DNA of 64,000 nt from assembly GCA_021787735.1 (NCBI GenBank), contig JAJYLL010000002.1:1-64000 (forward strand), read 5' to 3'. A program made the position numbers and the translations under genes. This stretch comes from Acidobacteriota bacterium. Its GTDB lineage: Bacteria; Acidobacteriota; Terriglobia; UBA7540. Shown piece by piece: positions 1,413-52,451 of this stretch (position 1 is the stretch's first letter; every line of letters starts with the position of its first letter). The notes under the pieces were generated by a model. It was not told the DNA's origin. It made no database searches and was given only the letters and a program-made list of their open reading frames with translations.

Positions 1413-3065
1413 GTGATAAAGTCGCATCAGCAGAACACCACCACAGCATTTACCCGGAGGGAGTGGATAAAACTCGCCGCATCGGCCGGCTCGATGGCCT
1501 TCTCTGCTGGTGGCCTGAGGGCCATGTCAACGGCTGCAATGCCTCCACCAGCGGCAACGGCACCCGGTACGCCCGCACAATGGACGGGCCGCAACCGGAA
1601 GCTCGACGGCTATTACGTTGCTCCGCATTATCCGGCCTATGAGCCGCATCCGCGCTATCTCGGCGAGCTTCACGGTTCCTGGTACCAAATCGGCAGGCAA
1701 TATGGAGAGCGGGCCGGAGACCTGATCCGCATGGTCTATGAGGGCTGGTACCTGGAGCTGCTTCCGGTTCAGGGCAGCCCCGAGGCCATAGCTGCCTATC
1801 TGCGCCAGCAGCAACAATACTATGAATTTCTGGTGCCCGAGGCGCTTGAGATGATGCATGGCATCGCCGACGGTGCGGCAACGGAGCTTTCACACTCGGC
1901 ATTCCCCCACGAACTCAGCCATTTCTATAAGATTCTGATGATCAACAGTTATTTCGGTTTGCAGGCGAAGCCACCTGTTTCGGCGACTGCCGAAGTGGCG
2001 CCTCCAGAGGGTGCGGTCCACTGCTGCAGCGGCGCGGTCATTCTTGGTGCTGCGACACGGGACGGCAAGGCTATCCACGTCAGTTCGGAAGATCAGCACT
2101 TCTTCCCACAGGAATATCTTGTCACCTTCATTGCCCACCCCAGCGATCGGCGAGCCCACCGATACACTGTGACCGACTCGGCGGGCGAGATAGGAAGCGA
2201 GCACGCGCAAAACGATCGCGGCGTGACGGTGAGCGGATATGCGGGCGGCCATTACGGAATTCTCGGTCCAACGCTGGCCCACCCGTTTTCAGGATACCGC
2301 CGGCCAGCCCTGGACTGGCAGGTGGGCGATTTTTATGCGGCGGCATTTGCAGACTCGGCGCGGCACGCCGTGGAGTTGCTGACCGTCGGCCGGCCGGAAT
2401 ACCGGGCCATGTCGGGCCACAAGATTGTGATCGGCAAATGCGCGCTGGGTGTCAATTGGGTGATTTCCGACCGCCATGAAGCCTTTGTGGTCGAAAGCAT
2501 TCCAGCCGATCAAAAAGGAATCGCGCGCTATGCGATCCGGACGCCAGGACAGATGGGCGAGACCGGCAGCCATTACATCGTCTCTACAAATAACGTCGAG
2601 GCCAAAGACAGTTACAACGAGGATAATGTCCACGACGCGGGCCACCCCATGAGCCAGCACGGAAACAGCAACCAGCATCCGACGCACTTTGGGCTGAGCA
2701 TCGCCGGCATGCGGTTCTGGACGTTCATGTGGCTGATCAAAAGGCAGTACGGCCATGTCACCGTCGACATGGTGCAGGCGTGGCGCAGAACGCATTTTGT
2801 GTACGACCGGTCGGGAGCCCGGCATGACACTATCGAGGCCGGAGGCCGCAAAGTTCCGGTCCATCTCGTGCCCGATGCGGCAACGCTCTGCTGGCACAGT
2901 TCAGGGCCGGCCGGCGTTGATACTTTTAAGGGCGTCGATACCTACGTCAGCCTGTCGGTGGCTGACGACTTGACGTCTTTCCGCACCAAAGGCAGACCAT
3001 GCGAGTGGCTGGGGCCTTGGGATCGTTTGTCGCTGCGCGATCCTCTACCAGCCACTACAGCGTAA
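1413..3065 (+). CDS. Tat-exported C45-like autoproteolytic acyltransferase/hydrolase
   Basis: Probable Ntn-hydrolase of the C45 (acyl-CoA:6-APA acyltransferase, phospholipase B-like) group, about 550 residues. The N-terminus has a twin-arginine signal (TRREWIK at residues 14-20, then an Ala/Ser/Gly-rich hydrophobic stretch), so it is predicted to be exported folded. The mature part has an early LHGSWYQIGRQYG block typical of the family and a Cys-Cys-Ser-Gly block at residues 204-207 followed by ATRDGKAIH, which fits the self-cleavage site where the nucleophilic Cys becomes the new N-terminus. The frame stays open upstream to 1257, but that part has no family character; I chose GTG at 1413, just behind a GA-rich stretch and just ahead of the Tat motif. 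A DUF1259 gene follows 41 bases downstream, suggesting cotranscription. The substrate is unknown; the family assignment is by motif only. Confidence 0.6.
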   Translation: MIKSHQQNTTTAFTRREWIKLAASAGSMAFSAGGLRAMSTAAMPPPAATAPGTPAQWTGRNRKLDGYYVAPHYPAYEPHPRYLGELHGSWYQIGRQYGERAGDLIRMVYEGWYLELLPVQGSPEAIAAYLRQQQQYYEFLVPEALEMMHGIADGAATELSHSAFPHELSHFYKILMINSYFGLQAKPPVSATAEVAPPEGAVHCCSGAVILGAATRDGKAIHVSSEDQHFFPQEYLVTFIAHPSDRRAHRYTVTDSAGEIGSEHAQNDRGVTVSGYAGGHYGILGPTLAHPFSGYRRPALDWQVGDFYAAAFADSARHAVELLTVGRPEYRAMSGHKIVIGKCALGVNWVISDRHEAFVVESIPADQKGIARYAIRTPGQMGETGSHYIVSTNNVEAKDSYNEDNVHDAGHPMSQHGNSNQHPTHFGLSIAGMRFWTFMWLIKRQYGHVTVDMVQAWRRTHFVYDRSGARHDTIEAGGRKVPVHLVPDAATLCWHSSGPAGVDTFKGVDTYVSLSVADDLTSFRTKGRPCEWLGPWDRLSLRDPLPATTA

Positions 3066-3106
3066 ACTGGCTGCGTTCGGTTTGACCGCCTATGGGAGGG
3101 CAAGTC

Positions 3107-4006
3107 ATGTTTCGAAAGTTCATTCTGGTTTCTCTATTTGTCATTTGTGCAACGCCATTTGCGCGCCCAGCGACGAAGCTCGATACGGCGAAGATTGACA
3201 CCGCGCTCGGCCGGGCCGGTTCCTGGACTGGAGGTCTTTACGTCGTCGACTTTTTCCGTCCCGACCTGGGGGTAACCCTCGAGGGAGTACGGCTGGCACC
3301 CGAAAGCATTGACTCGTTCGCAACCTTCGTGGGGACTGGCGATCAGGCCGAGATGATGGGCGAAGTTTGCGCCCTCCAGGGTGAAGTCACGACGGTCGTG
3401 GAGAAACTTCGGGCCAGGGGCATTGAGATTACGGGAATCCATAACCACTTCATCGAGGAATCACCGCGCCTCATGTTTATTCATTTCATGGCCAGTGGAC
3501 AGGCTGGAAATCTGGCGCGTGCATTCCGGTCTGCCCTGGCCACAACTTCGACGCCACTCGGTAGCTTTCCTCCTCCGCGGCAAGTGACTGCGGCACCCGC
3601 TTGGGCCAAAACCGTGGGGAACGCTCTGGGTTTCCAAGCGGACGCGCAGTATTCATCAGACTATGGGGGCCTGACAGTGGGAGTCCCGCACGCCGGCTTC
3701 GCTTCGAGTCCCATACACGACTACTGGTACGTGAACTATATGTTTTTCCAGGAGGCCCCGGCTGGCAAGATAGCTGCAACGGGAGACCTGGCAGTTACGG
3801 CGAGTGAGCTCAACCCGGTGCTATCCGCCCTGACCGCGGAGGGATTCCAGATCTTTGGTGTCCACAACCACATGATCGAGGAGCATCCGCGCTTGTTTTT
3901 CGTCCACTTCTGGAAGATCGGCGCGCCGGCTGAACTGGCCAGTGGCCTGAAAGCAGCGCTGGCGCACGTCAATACACGATACCAGCATGATCGTGCCCTT
4001 CACTGA
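3107..4006 (+). CDS. DUF1259 (LppY/LpqO-like) secreted protein, two tandem domains
   Basis: 299-residue protein with an N-terminal signal peptide (MFRKFILVSLFVICATPFARP) and two tandem copies of the DUF1259 fold. Each copy ends in the diagnostic block: GIHNHFIEESPRLMFIHF in the first and GVHNHMIEEHPRLFFVHF in the second. The conserved His/Asn/Glu/Pro residues suggest a metal or ligand site, but the family has no firmly known function. ATG 3107 is preferred over ATG 3092 because a GGGAGGG ribosome site (3094-3100) sits just upstream of it. It lies directly behind the C45-like hydrolase on the same strand, so the two may be expressed together as secreted proteins. Confidence 0.85.
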   Translation: MFRKFILVSLFVICATPFARPATKLDTAKIDTALGRAGSWTGGLYVVDFFRPDLGVTLEGVRLAPESIDSFATFVGTGDQAEMMGEVCALQGEVTTVVEKLRARGIEITGIHNHFIEESPRLMFIHFMASGQAGNLARAFRSALATTSTPLGSFPPPRQVTAAPAWAKTVGNALGFQADAQYSSDYGGLTVGVPHAGFASSPIHDYWYVNYMFFQEAPAGKIAATGDLAVTASELNPVLSALTAEGFQIFGVHNHMIEEHPRLFFVHFWKIGAPAELASGLKAALAHVNTRYQHDRALH

Positions 4007-4135
4007 TTCGAGCCAGCAACCTTCAGGGACACTGTCCAGTTCCCTGATACCTTTCACATGCAAACCAGCCGGTTGCGCCTCGGTAACAGATTTGCATGAA
4101 GGCCTCGGATAGGCATCGACCTTGACGAGATTCAG

Positions 4136-6865
4136 CTAATGTTTCTGCAGCCAACGCCAAAGCCCCGGGCCAGAGTTGAAGCCCTCGAGCAGCCAAAGAT
4201 CGCTGCGCTCCTTGCGAATCGATACCGCGAAACTCTTGCCGTCGGGAGCCAGGCTGAGTCGTACGCCAGGCTGCCAGACTCCGCTCGGCAGGAAATCCAT
4301 TCCCAGGTCCTCAATAGATTTCTCCTTCCCCGAGGCGACGTCCACTGAAAACAGAATCTGGTGACGATCATTGTCTGGATGAATGCCATAGAGCAACCTT
4401 CCGTCTCGCGACCAGAGCAGATAATCGGTTTTCAGCGGTCCCAAGCTGCGTTCCTTCTTGCCATCGGGAGAGACAAGCAGCCAATCACCGTTCGCCGATT
4501 CAACAGTAATCCAATTCCCCTCTGGCGACCAGGCTGGAATGAACCCATTGCCGCATCCATTTCCTTCCAGGATTACAGGCGCTTCCGAGCCTCCCAGCTT
4601 GTATTTCGCCAATTCCGATTTCCCCCCTGCGAACCTTTCATACGCCAACCAATTCCCATCAGGCGACCATGCGGGCGGGCCTTCGCCAACGGTTCCGGCT
4701 TCATGCGTAAGACGGACCGGGGTTCCTCCCCTGACGGGTGAAATCCAAATCCAGGCCGTGCTATCTTTGCCGCTCCTAACCCTTGTAAAGGCAATTCGCG
4801 AGCCGTCGGGGGAGAAAACAGGGCCCCAGAATCCTGCCGTGGGATTTGAGAATTGCTTGGGCGTCACCAGAGGCCGAGACCAGCCTTCCCCTGAGCTTTT
4901 CAGCCAGATCTCCTGCGGCCCATCCTGGTCGGACACGTAAACAAGCTCCTGTGCCACGGGCGACCAGGCCGGGTTGAATTCTGAGCGATCCGTGCTGACC
5001 AGAGGCTGCGGTACGCCGCCGTTCAGGGGCACCTCCTCGATGTCAAGGTCCAAGCGCCGATTAGCGAAGATCAGTTCCTGCCCGTCCGGTGAAACAGCCG
5101 GCCAGTCCTCCTCGTCCAGCCCGGAGGTCAATTGACGTAAGGTATTTGACTGCGTATTTGCAAGCCAGAGGTTGCGGTCGGATTGGCCGCGGGTTCCCAT
5201 TGAAATAACCACGTGGCGGCTGTCCGGCATCCAGGAGAAGCGAGGGGCGATCGACGGAGACGGAAGATTTTGGAGTACCTGCCGGGGAACGTCTCCGGAG
5301 CCTCCCGGGTAAGGAATCATCCACCACTGGTGTGAAAAAGTCTTCTCCGCTGCGGTCCCAGCTATGGAAAGCAGAATCCTGGAACCGTCAGGCGAAAAGC
5401 TCATTTCGGGGAAATTGATGATTTCCGTTTTCGCAAAGGGGGCGGGTGAGTACTTCCGCAATGGGACGCCGGGCGGCGAAGAAATCCAAAGGGAGTACAC
5501 ACCTTCCGCCCTGCGAAGCACGGCCAGGACTTTACCATCCGGAGAAAGGGCGGCGGTGTCTATGTTCTTTATCACCAATGTGGGTTCTCCACCGGCTACG
5601 GCCGCAGACCAGAGGCTGCCGTTGTCGTTGAAATAGTCCTTGTAATAAAAGACACGGCTTGAATCCGGCGACCAGAAGGCCACGACTCCCGCCGGCCCTG
5701 GCGTGATCCGTGTGGAAACCGCTGAACCGAGACTCCGCACGAACACCTCAGGCTCTCCTTTCACGATGCCGGTATAGGCGAAGCTCTTGCCGTCCGGAGC
5801 CCAGGCCGGGTGTTCCGCAATTGACAAATCCGTGCCGAGCGGGGTGAAGCGATAATTTGTGAGATCGGAACCCTGTTGTGGCGGGAAAAGCAAAACGGCC
5901 AGGAATACACCGATTGCTACGGTCAGCGCCCCTGCCAGGACTGCAAGGATCAGGGGCATCCGGCTGCGGCGGACCCTTGAAACCGGGAGATCGGCGCCCG
6001 AAGCCGTGGTAAAACTCTCGGAAAGATGGTCGCGCAGGCTGCGCAACTCCTGGTAAAGATCCCGCGTCGAGTCATAACGCTCGTGTGGCTCCTTGGCAAG
6101 GCACCGGTCGATCACCCAACGCAAGGGTGCGGGAAGCCTGGCATCGAGGGGCGGCGCTTCTTCTGTAATGATTGCCGCAAGCGTCTGGACGCTGGCTGGC
6201 CTTTCAAAGGGCCTCTTTCCGCTGCCGGCCTCATAGAGAATCAGCCCGAAGGAAAACTGGTCCGAATGGAAGCCAAGGTCTGAGCCCCGCGCCTGCTCTG
6301 GGCTCATGTAGTTCACGGTTCCAAGGATCGTTCCCGGCCGGGTCGGCCCAACGCTGGCCGTAGGACCATCGGAAGGCGTAAGGATGCCAGTCTGCTTGGC
6401 AAGACCGAAATCCAGAATCTTCACCCGCCCGTGGCGCGTGACCATAATGTTTTCCGGTTTGAGGTCGCGGTGGATGATTCCGGCTGCGTGCGCGGCAGCC
6501 AGGCCATCGGCAAGCTGAACGCCGAGGTCAAGCAGCCTGCGCACCGGAACCGCTCCACGGTTGATCAGCGCCCGCAAGGACTCGCCTTCCACGAGTTCCG
6601 TTACAAGGTAGGCCATGCCATCGTTGATGCCGATATCGAAAACAGTGATTATATTGGGATGGTTGAGGGCGCTGGCCGAGCGGGCCTCCTGCTCGAAACG
6701 GGCGCGCCGCACAGGATCGCCGGCAACGTCCAGTGGCAGCACCTTCAGGGCTACCTCGCGTCCGAGGCGCGTGTCGCGCGCGCGGTACACCTCGCCCATG
6801 CCGCCTGCACCCAGGGGCGATAGAATTTCATAAGGGCCGAGCCTTTCTCCTGTTGTCAGACTCAT
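4136..6865 (-). CDS. Membrane Ser/Thr protein kinase with TolB/WD40-like beta-propeller
   Basis: 909 residues. The cytoplasmic N-terminal Hanks-type kinase domain is intact: Gly-rich loop at 19-25, Lys41, HRDLKPEN at 132-139, DFG at 152-154, and an SPE motif at 188-190. A single hydrophobic segment at about 304-327 should anchor it, and the remaining roughly 570 residues contain repeated SPDG/SPDS blades of the PD40/TolB type, placing a beta-propeller sensor on the far side of the membrane. Such kinases are numerous in Acidobacteriota and phosphorylate mostly unknown targets. It sits 42 bases behind a paralogous kinase in the same orientation, so the two form an operon. An AAAAGAG site precedes the ATG. 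The ligand is unknown. Confidence 0.93.
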   Translation of the reverse strand: MSLTTGERLGPYEILSPLGAGGMGEVYRARDTRLGREVALKVLPLDVAGDPVRRARFEQEARSASALNHPNIITVFDIGINDGMAYLVTELVEGESLRALINRGAVPVRRLLDLGVQLADGLAAAHAAGIIHRDLKPENIMVTRHGRVKILDFGLAKQTGILTPSDGPTASVGPTRPGTILGTVNYMSPEQARGSDLGFHSDQFSFGLILYEAGSGKRPFERPASVQTLAAIITEEAPPLDARLPAPLRWVIDRCLAKEPHERYDSTRDLYQELRSLRDHLSESFTTASGADLPVSRVRRSRMPLILAVLAGALTVAIGVFLAVLLFPPQQGSDLTNYRFTPLGTDLSIAEHPAWAPDGKSFAYTGIVKGEPEVFVRSLGSAVSTRITPGPAGVVAFWSPDSSRVFYYKDYFNDNGSLWSAAVAGGEPTLVIKNIDTAALSPDGKVLAVLRRAEGVYSLWISSPPGVPLRKYSPAPFAKTEIINFPEMSFSPDGSRILLSIAGTAAEKTFSHQWWMIPYPGGSGDVPRQVLQNLPSPSIAPRFSWMPDSRHVVISMGTRGQSDRNLWLANTQSNTLRQLTSGLDEEDWPAVSPDGQELIFANRRLDLDIEEVPLNGGVPQPLVSTDRSEFNPAWSPVAQELVYVSDQDGPQEIWLKSSGEGWSRPLVTPKQFSNPTAGFWGPVFSPDGSRIAFTRVRSGKDSTAWIWISPVRGGTPVRLTHEAGTVGEGPPAWSPDGNWLAYERFAGGKSELAKYKLGGSEAPVILEGNGCGNGFIPAWSPEGNWITVESANGDWLLVSPDGKKERSLGPLKTDYLLWSRDGRLLYGIHPDNDRHQILFSVDVASGKEKSIEDLGMDFLPSGVWQPGVRLSLAPDGKSFAVSIRKERSDLWLLEGFNSGPGLWRWLQKH

Positions 6866-47096: not shown

Positions 47097-47657
47097 TCAC
47101 TTCAGTCCCAATTTTTGGCCTGCCGCCAGACGGGCAATCGATTCGTGTACGCGCCTTTCACGTGTTTCAGCGCGTTTGGCCGAATGAATCCAACGCACGT
47201 ATTCGCGGCGGTGGCTCAGCGATAGCTTCTTGAAGAAACGCCACGCCTCTGAATTCCCTTTGAGCGCTCTGGCGATATAGCCCGGCAGTTTCGGGACTAC
47301 AGCGCGCGGGGCGTAGGTGTTGCCGGTGGGCGCTGCCGCGAGGCCCGCCGGCGCAAGCAATCCTGCGTCACTAAGCGCCGCCCAGCGCTTGCGATTGATG
47401 TCAGACCACTTGCTCGTGGGCTTCCTAGGCGTAAACATGCGCGCGTATCGATAATCATCAAGCCGTTTGACGAGGCTGTCGATCCAGCCAAAGCACAACG
47501 CCTCCCGAACCGATTGCTCGTACGGGACGGACTTGTTGCTCACGTTGCTTTTATAAAACACAAGCCAGACGCCCGGACCTGAGGCATGATGTCCTGCCAG
47601 CCACTTTCGCCAGTCCCGGCTGTCCCGGACCTCCAGCACAGGGAGTTCTTTCGGCAT
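47097..47657 (-). CDS. YdeI/OmpD-associated-like protein
   Basis: 186 residues of the YdeI family. REALCFGWIDSLVKRLDD is the conserved centre, SKWSDINRKRW another family block, and the RRRVHESIARLAAGQK-like tail (ETRERRVHESIARL) is the usual end. The family is linked to bacteriocin or peptide resistance in some hosts, without a known mechanism. ATG 47657 is used rather than an in-frame TTG 18 bases upstream. It sits between kdsC and kdsD, where it has no obvious role in KDO synthesis. Confidence 0.88.
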   Translation of the reverse strand: MPKELPVLEVRDSRDWRKWLAGHHASGPGVWLVFYKSNVSNKSVPYEQSVREALCFGWIDSLVKRLDDYRYARMFTPRKPTSKWSDINRKRWAALSDAGLLAPAGLAAAPTGNTYAPRAVVPKLPGYIARALKGNSEAWRFFKKLSLSHRREYVRWIHSAKRAETRERRVHESIARLAAGQKLGLK

Positions 47658-47693
47658 ACTCCCCACCCCAACCAAATCGGCCTGCCGACAGGG

Positions 47694-48653
47694 TCAAAAC
47701 ATCTCGGTCTGCCACAGGTCGTGGATGTGGACCACGCCTTCGAGGCGGCCTTCCTGGTCCAACACCATCAATGAAGTGATCCGCCGGCTTTCCATGATGT
47801 TCAGAGCGCGCGTGGCCAGTTCCTTGCGCCCGATGGACACAGGGGCACGCGTCATCAGGTCTGCAGCGCAGTGATCGAGCGCGCGGTTGCCCTCGCGCTG
47901 AAAAAAACGCCGCAGATCGCCGTCTGAAATTACGCCTGCAAGCCGGCCATCTGCGTCCACCACGGCCGTGTGACCCATCTTCTTCTTGCTGATCTCATAG
48001 ATCACGTCGGGCAGCGTGGTTTCGGGATGCACTCGCGGAATCTCGTCTCCCGAGTGCATCACGTTTTCAACTCTCCGAAGTCGAACGCCCAGGCCGCCGC
48101 CTGGATGCAGCGCCGCGTAGTCCTCTTCCCTAAAGCCGCGACGTTCCAGCAGCGCCATCGCCAGCGCATCACCGACGGCCAGCATCGCCGTAGTGGATGC
48201 CGTGGGAGCAAGGCCCAGCGGGCAGGCTTCTTCGCTGATGCTCACGTCAATCACCACATCGCTTGCCTGCGCAAGCGTCGATGCCGGCTGGCCTGTCAGC
48301 ACAATCAGAGGGATGGCAAGGCGCTTGACCGTGTCGAGCAACCGCAGCAGTTCTTCCGTTTCGCCGCTATACGAGAGCGCCATCAGCACGTCATTCGCTA
48401 CCAGACGGCCCAGATCTCCGTGCAAAGCTTCGGCGGGATGCAGGAAAAATGAAGGCGTCCCAGTGCTGGAAAAAGTGGCTGAGATCTTCTGCCCGATCAG
48501 GCCGGACTTGCCCATGCCCGTCACCACCAGGCGCCCCCGGCAAGCCAGGATGGTCTCCACCGCGCGCTCGAAATGCTCGTCCAGCCGCCCGATCAGTTCC
48601 GCAATGGCGCGCGCTTCGATCTGAAGGACTCTTCTGCCGGTTTCAAGACTCAT
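47694..48653 (-). CDS. kdsD: Arabinose-5-phosphate isomerase
   Basis: 319 residues, normal for KdsD/KpsF/GutQ. The N-terminal SIS domain has VVTGMGKSGLIGQKI and ALSYSGETEELL, with the LHPGGGLG loop; two CBS domains follow (residues about 210-319). It turns ribulose-5-phosphate into arabinose-5-phosphate, the first committed precursor of KDO. A TGxTATGAT extended -10 box lies 25 bases upstream of the ATG, so it may have its own promoter. It is 37 bases upstream of the YdeI-like gene on the same strand. Confidence 0.94.
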   Translation of the reverse strand: MSLETGRRVLQIEARAIAELIGRLDEHFERAVETILACRGRLVVTGMGKSGLIGQKISATFSSTGTPSFFLHPAEALHGDLGRLVANDVLMALSYSGETEELLRLLDTVKRLAIPLIVLTGQPASTLAQASDVVIDVSISEEACPLGLAPTASTTAMLAVGDALAMALLERRGFREEDYAALHPGGGLGVRLRRVENVMHSGDEIPRVHPETTLPDVIYEISKKKMGHTAVVDADGRLAGVISDGDLRRFFQREGNRALDHCAADLMTRAPVSIGRKELATRALNIMESRRITSLMVLDQEGRLEGVVHIHDLWQTEMF

Positions 48654-48866: not shown

Positions 48867-49901
48867 TCACTTAAGCACAAAGTCGACTAGAGACTCGTTG
48901 ACTCGAAGTTCGTCATCGTAATGGATATATCCCTTTTTCCGGAACTGGCTCATGAGGGCACTCACTTGCGCCCGTGTGGCGCCAATCATCTGGGCGAGGG
49001 TTTCATGGGTGACCCGGGGCACGACAGCCGGCAACGCTTGTCTCTCGCTGGCCCTGGCCAAAAGCAGAAGAGCCCTCGCCAGCCGCTTCTCGGTCGAATC
49101 GAACGTCAGACTGATGACGTCCTCCTGAACGGAGACGTTGCGCATGAGGAGATACGATAGGAAGTATTCGGAAAATTTCGGTTCGGTGCGCAGCAGTTTA
49201 GCCATGACGGCTTTGTCCAGGCGGATCGCCGTGGAATCGGTAACCGCTGTTGCTGTCGCAATGTAGCCAATCTCCACGGTGCGAAGAGGCGGAACGACGA
49301 AATCGAAGACACCCTCCTCCAGCGCATCAAGGTACAGCGGAACATCGACAAACCTGGAAACAACAATAACCTCAGCAGGACTGGGACTATGCCGCGCCAT
49401 TTGAAGTACTCGCTTCCAGTCTCCGTCGGGAAGTTGAACATCGGTAAAGATCACATCGGCCGTCCCGTGACGCCCGATTCCACCCCCGGCTTCCCTGCAG
49501 CCGGTGACGGTTCGAATCTCCAAAGGGCACGGATCTAAGGCGCAGGCCAACTCCTGCATGAGCCCACCTCCACTCGAGACAAGGACGATGCAGGGTAAAT
49601 CTTCCGTCTCATCGCAAGCGCAGAAGTGGAGGGGTGATCGGCTACCTTCAGGCCTCTTAAAGACCCGGCCCCGGCCATCTGGCTGTCCAGGCACACAAGA
49701 TCGGGACTCACGAGGGTTATGCTTCTTGCCTGCGGCATAATTTTTCGAGGACAGCAAGGTGTTTCCGGGCGCTGATTGCGGTGGTGAGGACCTGTGATCT
49801 TCTCCTCGCTCGGCAGACCGCGGGGGGGACAGGTCTTGAGCCTCAATCAAGTTGGTGCCTACCGCCTTCAAAGTCAGGAGTTGCACCCCGCTCCGATTCA
49901 T
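48867..49901 (-). CDS. Chimeric regulator: receiver-like domain joined to truncated Crp/Fnr protein
   Basis: 344 residues. Residues about 102-211 look like a response-regulator receiver: a Cys-Ile-Val-Leu-Val-Ser strand, VIFTDVQLPDGDW with the phospho-acceptor-position Asp154, VIVVSRF, and FDFVVPPLRT where the usual Lys is Pro. At about residue 212 the sequence changes to IATATAVTDSTAIRLDK, the last strands of a cyclic-nucleotide-binding domain, then its long dimer helix (SEYFLSYLLMRN) and a winged helix-turn-helix (THETLAQMIGATRAQVSALMSQF). About three quarters of the CNB domain is missing. Residues 1-100 are low-complexity and may not be translated. The start is unsure; a CAGACA-17-TAATAT promoter precedes ATG 49901. 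Confidence 0.75.
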   Translation of the reverse strand: MNRSGVQLLTLKAVGTNLIEAQDLSPPRSAERGEDHRSSPPQSAPGNTLLSSKNYAAGKKHNPRESRSCVPGQPDGRGRVFKRPEGSRSPLHFCACDETEDLPCIVLVSSGGGLMQELACALDPCPLEIRTVTGCREAGGGIGRHGTADVIFTDVQLPDGDWKRVLQMARHSPSPAEVIVVSRFVDVPLYLDALEEGVFDFVVPPLRTVEIGYIATATAVTDSTAIRLDKAVMAKLLRTEPKFSEYFLSYLLMRNVSVQEDVISLTFDSTEKRLARALLLLARASERQALPAVVPRVTHETLAQMIGATRAQVSALMSQFRKKGYIHYDDELRVNESLVDFVLK

Positions 49902-49922: not shown

Positions 49923-49951
49923 TTAGCCTCAACAAGGGTTGTCTGTATAAA
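49923..49951 (+). promoter_or_regulatory. Possible promoter of the cupin gene
   Basis: TTAGCC (49923-49928), 17 bases, TATAAA (49946-49951) on the plus strand. It overlaps, back to back, the presumed promoter of the chimeric regulator, so the two genes could be controlled together. Confidence 0.4.
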
Positions 49952-50070
49952 ATTGAACATTGGGATGCAGAGTCACAAGCGCCGCACAGCCTTTATTGAC
50001 CGGGCTCCGCGTCACCCTGAATGTCCTTGGATTTAACTGCCTGCAAGGAATGCTTACGAGGAAATATCTG

Positions 50071-50472
50071 ATGACAAAGTTCGAAACAAGACTACTTCCC
50101 AAAGACCGAACCGTGGTGGCGCCGGACGGGTCCGATGTGAGGACGCTACTCCGCCTTAAAGGAGGCGGGATGGCGCACTTCGAACTCGCGGCAGGCAAGA
50201 CCTCGCGGGGCATCGTGCACCGGACCGTGGAGGAAATCTGGTTCTTCATTTCCGGCCAGGGGGAGATGTGGCGCGAGCAGGAGGGCCAAGCGCAAATCGT
50301 GGAGGTCTACCCCGGCGTTTGCATTACGATCCCGCAGGGCACCCGGTTCCAGTTCAGGTGCCTGGGACACGACTCGCTCGAAGCGGTTGGCGTCACCATG
50401 CCTCCGTGGCCCGGCGACGGAGAAGCCCTGTTTGTGGAAGGACCGTGGCAACCCACCGTTGAAGGGCCATGA
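50071..50472 (+). CDS. Small cupin-domain protein
   Basis: 133-residue single-domain cupin. GIVHRTVEEIWFFISGQGEMW holds the first cupin motif (His, Glu) and VEVYPGVCITIPQGTRFQFRCLG the second. The fold binds a metal and a small sugar, acid or hormone-like ligand; function cannot be told from sequence. ATG 50071 is chosen because GAGGA lies 8-9 bases upstream; ATG 50050 is an alternative. It is divergent from the chimeric regulator, which may control it. Confidence 0.83.
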   Translation: MTKFETRLLPKDRTVVAPDGSDVRTLLRLKGGGMAHFELAAGKTSRGIVHRTVEEIWFFISGQGEMWREQEGQAQIVEVYPGVCITIPQGTRFQFRCLGHDSLEAVGVTMPPWPGDGEALFVEGPWQPTVEGP

Positions 50473-50660: not shown

Positions 50661-52451
50661 TTATCCGGTAATTTCCTTCTCTTCCGCGTAAAGCGTTGAG
50701 CGGTTGCGGCCTGCGCGCTTGGATTCATAGAGAGCTCGATCGCTGGCCTGAAGCATCTCTTCGAGCGTTCCCCCGTGCTCGGGGTAAACCGCGATCCCCA
50801 GGCTGACGGTGATGGGTGGAATAGGTTTTTCCTTTACCTGGGGAGCGTTCATCCGCGCCACCGCGTTCCGGATGCGTTCGGCCACCACCTGGCATGCCTT
50901 GGCACCGGTGTCCGGCAACAGGATGATAAACTCCTCGCCGCCCAGGCGCGCGGTCAGATTGGTTTCCCGCATGGACTGAGTGACGGTCTTGGCGAACTGC
51001 CTGAGGATGCGGTCGCCAACTTCGTGCCCATACACATCGTTAATGTTCTTGAAGTGGTCAAGGTCCAGCATGATGAAGCCAAGTGGCGTATCCTTGCGGC
51101 GCGACATGGCCATCAGCTTGCGCGCATAGTCCTTACAGAAGCGGCGGTTGTAGAGCCCCGTAAGCGGGTCCATGTTGGCCTGCTCGCGCATGGTCTGCAG
51201 CAGGTGAAGGTTGGAAAGCACGGAAGCCGTTGTACTGAGATAACTTTCCACAAGACTTTCGCGCTCCGGTGTCCACAATCCGGTTTCACCCTGAAGGCGA
51301 ACGGCTCCGATGATGATTCCACCGGCAATCAGGGGGCCGCAGTAATAGCTGCCCTTCGTGGGTTCCGCAAACTTGGCCGGACACAGAGGCTCTACGGAAA
51401 CGTCATTGACACGGAAAGGTCGCCCCATACGAACAGCTTTGCAACGGTGCTTGCCTTCAATCACGGGCCATTCCTGCAAATCCTCGGGCAGCGGATTCAG
51501 TGAAGCCACCACTTCCAGGTAGTCTTCTTCCGGGCGCAGCTTGAAAATAATCACCTGTTCCGCATGGAAGCGGTCGCGCAGGGCGTGCAGAATCTGGTCA
51601 TAGACCTCGGCTTCTGACGTGCATTGCGTCACAGCCTCTGAATAGCGTTTGAGGGCGCCCAACTCCTCGCGGTCCTGCCACAAAGCTTCGGTCATTTCCC
51701 GGAAGCTGCGCGACAGCACACCAAACTCATTGTCCGCCTCCGGAGGCAGCTCAAGATCAAAATCTCCGTGTCTCAGGTGCTCCGCGGCGCTGATGAACTG
51801 TTGCACGGGTTCCGTAATCTCGCGGCTGACATAGTGGACGAGCAGAAACATCAGGGCCGCAAACACCAACCCCATCGCCACTCCCGACGCCACGGCCCAG
51901 CGGATGTCATGGTTGCGGATGCTTCGGTTTGAGTCAGCATCCTTCTGGCTCATTTGCCGGAGCTGGAGCACCGCTCCCTGGATCTCTGCAAGGTTCGACG
52001 TCCACTGCTCATCGACCAACTCGCCGCCACTCTTCCCGCCAGCCTTCACCTCTGCGAGCACCGGATCAACCCGCTGCGTTTTCCAGGTCTCAAAGCGTTT
52101 TTGCAGATTTCCCAACTCAGCCACTCGGGAAGGCGGTTGCGAGGTCAGGTCATGCAAGTTAACAAATTCCTGCAGCACGGAGCGCGAAGCCGTCTGGTAG
52201 GCCTGTAGAAACGAGTCCTGGCGCGTCAGAATATAGCCTCGGGCCCTGCTGTCCATTTCGTTGACGCCCTGCAGCAGGGATTCCGTGTGCAATACCCTCA
52301 ATTCACTCCGCTCTACGGATTGGCGGACCTGATTGATTTTCCAGTAGTTGTAGAAAAAGAGGCCGACAAATCCAAAAAGGACCAGGATAAGCGGCAGTAT
52401 GAGGGCAAATACCTGGGAGCGGATCTTCAATTGTCGCAGTGAGAGCGCCAT
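50661..52451 (-). CDS. Membrane diguanylate cyclase: CHASE3-like, HAMP, GAF and GGDEF
   Basis: 596 residues. Helix 1 (about 14-36) and helix 2 (about 187-208) enclose a periplasmic helical domain resembling CHASE3. A HAMP domain (209-262), a GAF domain (about 270-418) and a GGDEF domain follow. The active loop is GGEEF at 504-508, with LDLDHFKNIND for metal binding, so it should make cyclic-di-GMP. The product-inhibition site, normally RxxD five residues before GGEEF, reads RETN (495-498), so Asp is replaced by Asn. It is alone between the cupin and kdsA, with 213 bases on the kdsA side. Confidence 0.93.
   Translation of the reverse strand: MALSLRQLKIRSQVFALILPLILVLFGFVGLFFYNYWKINQVRQSVERSELRVLHTESLLQGVNEMDSRARGYILTRQDSFLQAYQTASRSVLQEFVNLHDLTSQPPSRVAELGNLQKRFETWKTQRVDPVLAEVKAGGKSGGELVDEQWTSNLAEIQGAVLQLRQMSQKDADSNRSIRNHDIRWAVASGVAMGLVFAALMFLLVHYVSREITEPVQQFISAAEHLRHGDFDLELPPEADNEFGVLSRSFREMTEALWQDREELGALKRYSEAVTQCTSEAEVYDQILHALRDRFHAEQVIIFKLRPEEDYLEVVASLNPLPEDLQEWPVIEGKHRCKAVRMGRPFRVNDVSVEPLCPAKFAEPTKGSYYCGPLIAGGIIIGAVRLQGETGLWTPERESLVESYLSTTASVLSNLHLLQTMREQANMDPLTGLYNRRFCKDYARKLMAMSRRKDTPLGFIMLDLDHFKNINDVYGHEVGDRILRQFAKTVTQSMRETNLTARLGGEEFIILLPDTGAKACQVVAERIRNAVARMNAPQVKEKPIPPITVSLGIAVYPEHGGTLEEMLQASDRALYESKRAGRNRSTLYAEEKEITG

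Follow-up and report, generated by a model that had tools for sequence, protein, structure and literature searches.

Receivers that are controlled by phosphorylation carry an acidic pocket after strand 1, the phosphorylated Asp, a Ser/Thr after strand 4 and a Lys after strand 5, and a Lys-Pro motif is expected in receivers. In the winged-helix response regulators KdpE and CosR, which carry the OmpR/PhoB label, a receiver is followed by a winged helix. The same order of domains is found in a gene of the Acidobacteriota bacterium studied here, which lies in the first 64,000 nucleotides of contig JAJYLL010000002.1 (this whole stretch is referred to as the window). Full-length KdpE and CosR were both among the structural matches of its product, but the output part is in this case a Crp-type winged helix together with a Crp dimer helix, and the phosphate-site residues are largely gone.

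The output part of this fusion resembles an acidobacterial subfamily of Crp/Fnr proteins (motifs LFNSSEKRLAR and GTTRSRVSHFMNKFRKLGF) in the last strand of the cyclic-nucleotide domain (CNB), in the dimer helix and in the winged helix, and its best matches were full-length members of this subfamily, 45-50% identical. In contrast to these proteins, the fusion is devoid of the effector-binding CNB and several invariant residues are changed. The receiver part, in turn, aligns without gaps over the whole domain to stand-alone acidobacterial pseudo-receivers (LPDG.W, PP[FL]), with which it has the Pro-Pro and LPDG.W residues in common, but the stand-alone proteins terminate after helix 5 whereas the fusion continues into the Crp tail, and in the fusion there is no Met just ahead of strand 1. 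Members of the same receiver family are also found adjoining a Crp/Fnr protein on one strand (for example at locus L089, on contig C144 of the same genome), although such pairs consist of two genes, have the CNB intact and involve another Crp subfamily. Among the open-licence papers listed, there was no mention in titles or abstract openings of a single protein combining a receiver and a Crp winged helix without a CNB.

A receiver joined in frame to a Crp/Fnr tail

The fusion ORF (48867-49901, reverse strand) comprises 344 codons plus a stop, without any internal stop, and is located between kdsD and a cupin gene. Pfam analysis of the whole ORF detected the winged helix as HTH_Crp_2 at residues 272-328 (E 4.7e-12, 46.1 bits against a cut-off of 27) and Response_reg at residues 137-208 just under the cut-off (E 2.5e-6), the latter coming just above it (30.7 bits) when residues 101-222 were searched alone. 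Two profiles from which the fusion had been left out gave ungapped matches: the receiver profile, made from 18 stand-alone receivers, covered residues 106-217 (49251-49586, reverse strand; 111 bits), and the Crp/Fnr profile, made from 13 Crp/Fnr ORFs and 237 positions long, covered only residues 213-344 (48870-49265, reverse strand; 161 bits). Residues 213-217 (Y-I-A-T-A, 49251-49265, reverse strand) are claimed by both. Sequence matches in the PDB split likewise, the best Crp/Fnr entries covering 215-330 and the receivers lying within about 103-237. The in-frame join of a receiver directly to a Crp/Fnr tail, which an earlier note on this DNA had proposed from the sequence, is real, and its placement of the junction near residue 212 was close to the 213-217 indicated by the profiles.

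Since the Crp profile match starts at model position 105 of 237, what is left over of the Crp/Fnr protein is the last CNB strand, the dimer helix and the winged helix. No full N-terminal CNB-type domain was detected, cNMP_binding giving E 0.12 over model positions 62-88 of 89 when the tail piece was searched. Both Pfam and the profile therefore agree with the proposed loss of the effector pocket, and it follows from the missing CNB that the usual control by cyclic nucleotides cannot operate, again as had been anticipated. If it is made, the fusion protein would best be read as a cyclic-nucleotide-blind DNA binder.

Of 68 conserved columns, 65% are retained in the Crp/Fnr tail, against a minimum of 81% among 29 other Crp proteins, a comparison biased in favour of the latter because the columns were picked on these 29 proteins themselves. 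Among the positions invariant in the 29 relatives, Arg312, near the recognition helix, is changed to Gln and Asp264 to Ser. The recognition-helix region thus carries Gln312 and Leu316 where the family has Arg and Phe, and as this Leu316 is common to the fusion and to a remnant of the same tail in a congener, the DNA preference of the tail probably changed before the two split.

The receiver belongs to a phosphate-blind family

The same note had described the receiver as degenerate, with Asp154 present and the Lys replaced by Pro. Both observations hold: Pro204-Pro205 occupy the expected Lys-Pro site, and the phosphate-site motif is incomplete, with Ser-Ser-Gly at 109-111, Asp154 and Ser182 present and Pro204 in the place of Lys. 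The implied decay is nevertheless misleading, given that Pro-Pro is a trait of the family. In a comparison set of 65 distinct stand-alone receivers, mostly from the family of the source bacterium, Pro was found at position 205 in 62 and at position 204 in 55, and position 154 was occupied by Asp in 43 and by Glu in 12. Because Pro-Pro is typical of these acidobacterial receivers, the replacement of Lys by Pro is no damage in the fusion.

Most of the stand-alone receiver frames measure 140-280 residues from stop to stop and carry LPDG.W and PP[FL]. By the motifs of this PPF pseudo-receiver family (LPDG.W, VIVVSR.VD and G(A)FDF..PP[FL]) the fusion is a member, keeping 23 of 34 conserved columns, including D159, G160, W162, D186, P204 and P205; as few or fewer are kept in only three of the 65 stand-alone members. 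In the receiver tree the branch of the fusion measures 1.05 against a median of 0.22, and its position is unsure owing to this length. An AlphaFold2 model of residues 101-344 (244 residues; mean pLDDT 78.5, pTM 0.55) has a receiver fold in model residues 1-100, with ten-residue blocks at pLDDT 81-97. Its receiver part matched the solved receiver 3t6k_A with Z 17.9 and rmsd 1.9 over 120 aligned residues, the VIA-align structural matches barely probing the model beyond residue 125. The junction and the dimer helix fall into low-confidence blocks (pLDDT 42-66), and the arrangement of the two domains in the model is not relied on here.

Some PPF receivers carry an N-terminal extension (L035 1015-1860, L034 851-1891 and L038 15221-16078), with MYIQY.G and REFTV(K/Q)I in common, and the extensions of L035 and L034 gave no Pfam match over the cut-off.

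Three states of the locus in one genus

The syntenic anchors of the locus are, downstream, kdsD (arabinose-5-phosphate isomerase type; 47694-48653, reverse strand) and, upstream, a CHASE3-HAMP-GAF-GGDEF gene (50661-52451, reverse strand). The gene order kdsC, kdsD, cupin, GGDEF gene, kdsA, pyrG is common to the window and to the two congeners compared, G001 and G002, and the starts of kdsD and cupin lie 1418 bases apart in the window, as against 643 in G002 and 155 in G001. Within this interval G002 has a remnant of the Crp tail that begins at about fusion residue 242, with the upstream part gone, a gap of 7 codons and a stop; the remnant and the fusion tail, which are orthologous, group together in the tree with support of 100/100. 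Nothing of the regulator was found between kdsD and cupin in G001. Within a single genus the locus is found fused, broken or missing altogether. Sixteen other kdsD loci gave no match to the fusion by tblastn (E 1e-4).

An ORF of the genome G022 (L052 5612-6367, reverse strand), upstream of kdsD, was considered as a full-length syntenic parent and rejected, being set apart by a branch of 4.41 and different in sequence throughout. This distant Crp/Fnr gene, which has a CNB and directly adjoins kdsD on its upstream side in a different genus of the family, represents either an independent placement at this site or chance. The window also has an OmdA/YdeI-type gene (47097-47675, reverse strand; Pfam OmdA) between kdsC and kdsD, present in G002 and absent from G001, which is a second gain or loss within the same cluster.

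The cupin gene (50071-50472, forward strand; Pfam Cupin_2, E 7.4e-6, just under the cut-off) is divergent from the fusion, as had been stated, but the overlapping promoters proposed along with this arrangement are unsupported, no sigma-70-like promoter having been found. Inspection by eye of the gap between the two genes gave no convincing palindromic operator. The longest word common to the same gap of G002 was TATAAAATTG (49946-49955, forward strand), and no common word of nine or more bases was found with the gap of G001, where there is no regulator.

Search for the same junction elsewhere

Searches of genomes at increasing distance did not reveal a second protein with this junction. In a set of 61 genomes that included the own genome, the best non-self match among those listed covered residues 214-343 only, and in the family set (39 genomes) it was likewise limited to residues of the Crp tail. 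In the class and phylum sets (399 and 396 genomes, some genomes belonging to several sets), for which up to eight candidates were scored per genome, none of the non-self matches listed begins before residue 197 of the fusion (residue 47 of the query), all of them starting in the CNB-end region. Thus, among the matches listed, no homologue with the same junction was present in the 60 other relatives or in the family, class and phylum samples. The possibility of a conserved new family of regulators finds no support in these partial samples, in which orthologues sharing the junction were sought and none was among the matches listed.

Scanning of the collected genome contigs with the single fusion protein retrieved no relative, and scanning with an alignment retrieved 12 receiver loci, none of them joined to a Crp tail; the named loci among the eight best matches of the latter scan were from Acidobacteriota, five of them titled Terriglobia. 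Likewise, the 73 other receiver ORFs, which represent 65 distinct domains, all lacked a Crp match within the same ORF. A match at G019:C191, to residues 129-310 across a stop, was discarded because the ORF is a simple receiver and the surrounding stretch of DNA gave no match to the Crp profile.

Pseudo-receivers adjoining Crp/Fnr genes

A Crp/Fnr ORF was found directly downstream, on the same strand, of at least 10 of the 65 distinct receivers, a set that excludes the fusion (loci L089, L085, L088, L039, L069, L073, L075, L076, L118 and L142). The spacing, measured between stop-to-stop frames, is 183-427 bases, and the count is a minimum because some of the fetched stretches end too near downstream. 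One of these pairs belongs to the own genome (L089 2997-4567, contig C144; receiver 2997-3413, Crp 3827-4567), and its Crp protein has a full CNB; just upstream of the pair there is a gene for a PAS/GAF/sigma-54-type regulator, with domains judged by eye. Given that the own genome has only nine HTH_Crp_2 matches in 4.87 million bases, eight of them over the cut-off, adjacency by chance is expected to be far rarer than observed (an estimated 0.04% or so per receiver). The gene pairs suggest a working link between pseudo-receivers and Crp/Fnr proteins, and a fusion would therefore join proteins that possibly cooperated already. They also show that the geometry for a fusion by deletion, a receiver gene followed immediately by a Crp/Fnr gene in the same orientation, exists.

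The paired Crp proteins included in the tree all fall into one group, apart from the subfamily of the fusion and separated from its tail by a branch of 3.36 with support of 100/100, and they were rejected as the source of the tail. Since the paired Crp genes represent another subfamily, the actual parent pair, with a fusion-type receiver beside a member of the fusion-type Crp subfamily, was not found among the 10. A further suggestion, which we consider decidedly unlikely, is that PPF pseudo-receivers control Crp/Fnr proteins in trans as protein partners, the fusion being the cis form in which a phosphate-blind receiver has replaced the CNB.

Coding signal, translation start and selection

The codon usage of codons 146-213 and 214-344 is within the range of the neighbour genes, 12% and 15% of gene pieces, respectively, scoring as low. 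Codons 1-100 (49602-49901, reverse strand), an open frame without coding signal or Pfam match, scored lower than any piece of equal length from ten neighbour genes (0/238), as did codons 101-145 (0/294), and a search for a hidden domain in the frames over codons 1-100 gave Pfam matches no better than E 0.3. There is no Shine-Dalgarno-like sequence at codon 1, whereas several neighbours and stand-alone receivers have one. The sole other in-frame ATG within codons 1-131 is codon 115 (49557-49559, reverse strand), which has GGAGG 8 to 12 bases upstream (49567-49571), and no ATG, GTG or TTG occurs in between codons 70 and 115. Judging from these signals, translation may start at codon 115, in which case the first receiver strand would be omitted.

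Comparison of the fusion tail with the G002 remnant over 95 codons gave dN 0.349, dS 1.149 and a dN/dS of 0.30 (bootstrap 0.15-0.54), or 0.35 (0.18-0.61) with an alternative gap placement, and in the two bootstrap series, of 296 and 300 replicates, every value was below 1; the comparison is between two copies, one of them broken, and the remnant may account for much of the change. For the neighbours, dN/dS was about 0.07 (kdsD), 0.11 (cupin), 0.17 (GGDEF gene) and 0.07 (kdsA). The tail was therefore under purifying selection through most of the period that followed the split, although less strictly than its neighbours.

Origin and fate of the fusion

Two origins had been left side by side in the earlier note, a new type of regulator and a fusion produced by deletion between neighbouring genes, and the latter is now the better supported, with no homologue of the junction among the matches listed, decay in the congeners and loss of conserved residues in both halves. 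Because the relatives examined all lack the junction, and the two nearest ones have the gene either in broken form or not at all, a recent accident is favoured over an established regulator. We lean, without great assurance, towards a young chimera, specific to this lineage, at the locus of a regulator now being lost from the genus, although the intact 344 codons, the ungapped domains, the ordinary coding signal at codons 146-344, the selection on the tail and the absence of the parent pair from the gene pairs found count against an accident.

The starting point of such a chimera may have been an ancestral Crp/Fnr regulator encoded between kdsD and cupin in this acidobacterial genus. In one species, the Crp C-terminal part would have been joined in frame to a stand-alone pseudo-receiver, which took the place of the cyclic-nucleotide domain when the latter was lost by deletion or recombination; the genus as a whole appears to be losing the regulator, with a broken tail in one congener and none in the other. 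The product, if translated, perhaps only from codon 115 and so lacking the first receiver strand, would pair via the Crp dimer helix and bind DNA without control by cyclic nucleotides or phosphate, its target probably being the gap between the cupin and fusion genes. Constraint on the fusion would have weakened, and the gene would probably be disappearing.

It is rather unlikely that the fusion is instead a working regulator of a new kind, in which a pseudo-receiver has replaced the CNB and gates the Crp winged helix via a partner protein and not by phosphate. The intact frame, the tail dN/dS of 0.30, the clean domain junction and the 10 of 65 receivers lying directly upstream of a Crp/Fnr gene would fit such a role, but no orthologue with the junction was among the matches listed, the locus has decayed in the congeners, the start codon is ambiguous and conserved residues were lost in both halves, including Arg312 to Gln and Asp264 to Ser. 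Less likely again is a gene that is already a pseudogene, an open frame left over from two genes that gives no functional protein; codons 1-145 without coding signal, the lack of a start with a ribosome site ahead of the receiver, the broken congener copy and the length of the receiver branch (1.05, where the median is 0.22) are what such a gene would show, but the 239 codons of the two domains are free of stops and frameshifts and the tail dN/dS is well below 1, with every bootstrap value under 1. An assembly artefact joining two unrelated loci of this draft genome of 184 contigs is very improbable, because the flanking genes are the same in two congeners and the closest relative of the tail is at the same place in G002, the ORF moreover being internal to a contig of 117,563 bases and an artefact requiring two breakpoints within one gene.

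Conclusions

If the fusion is active, it would mean that a receiver-like domain can take over the role of a cyclic-nucleotide domain in driving the dimer helix and winged helix of Crp. Should it instead be a chimera that is dying out, the reading that we favour, it would still represent domain shuffling caught at a locus that is fused, broken or gone among members of one genus. The lead provided by the gene pairs makes the role of the large family of phosphate-blind stand-alone receivers testable.
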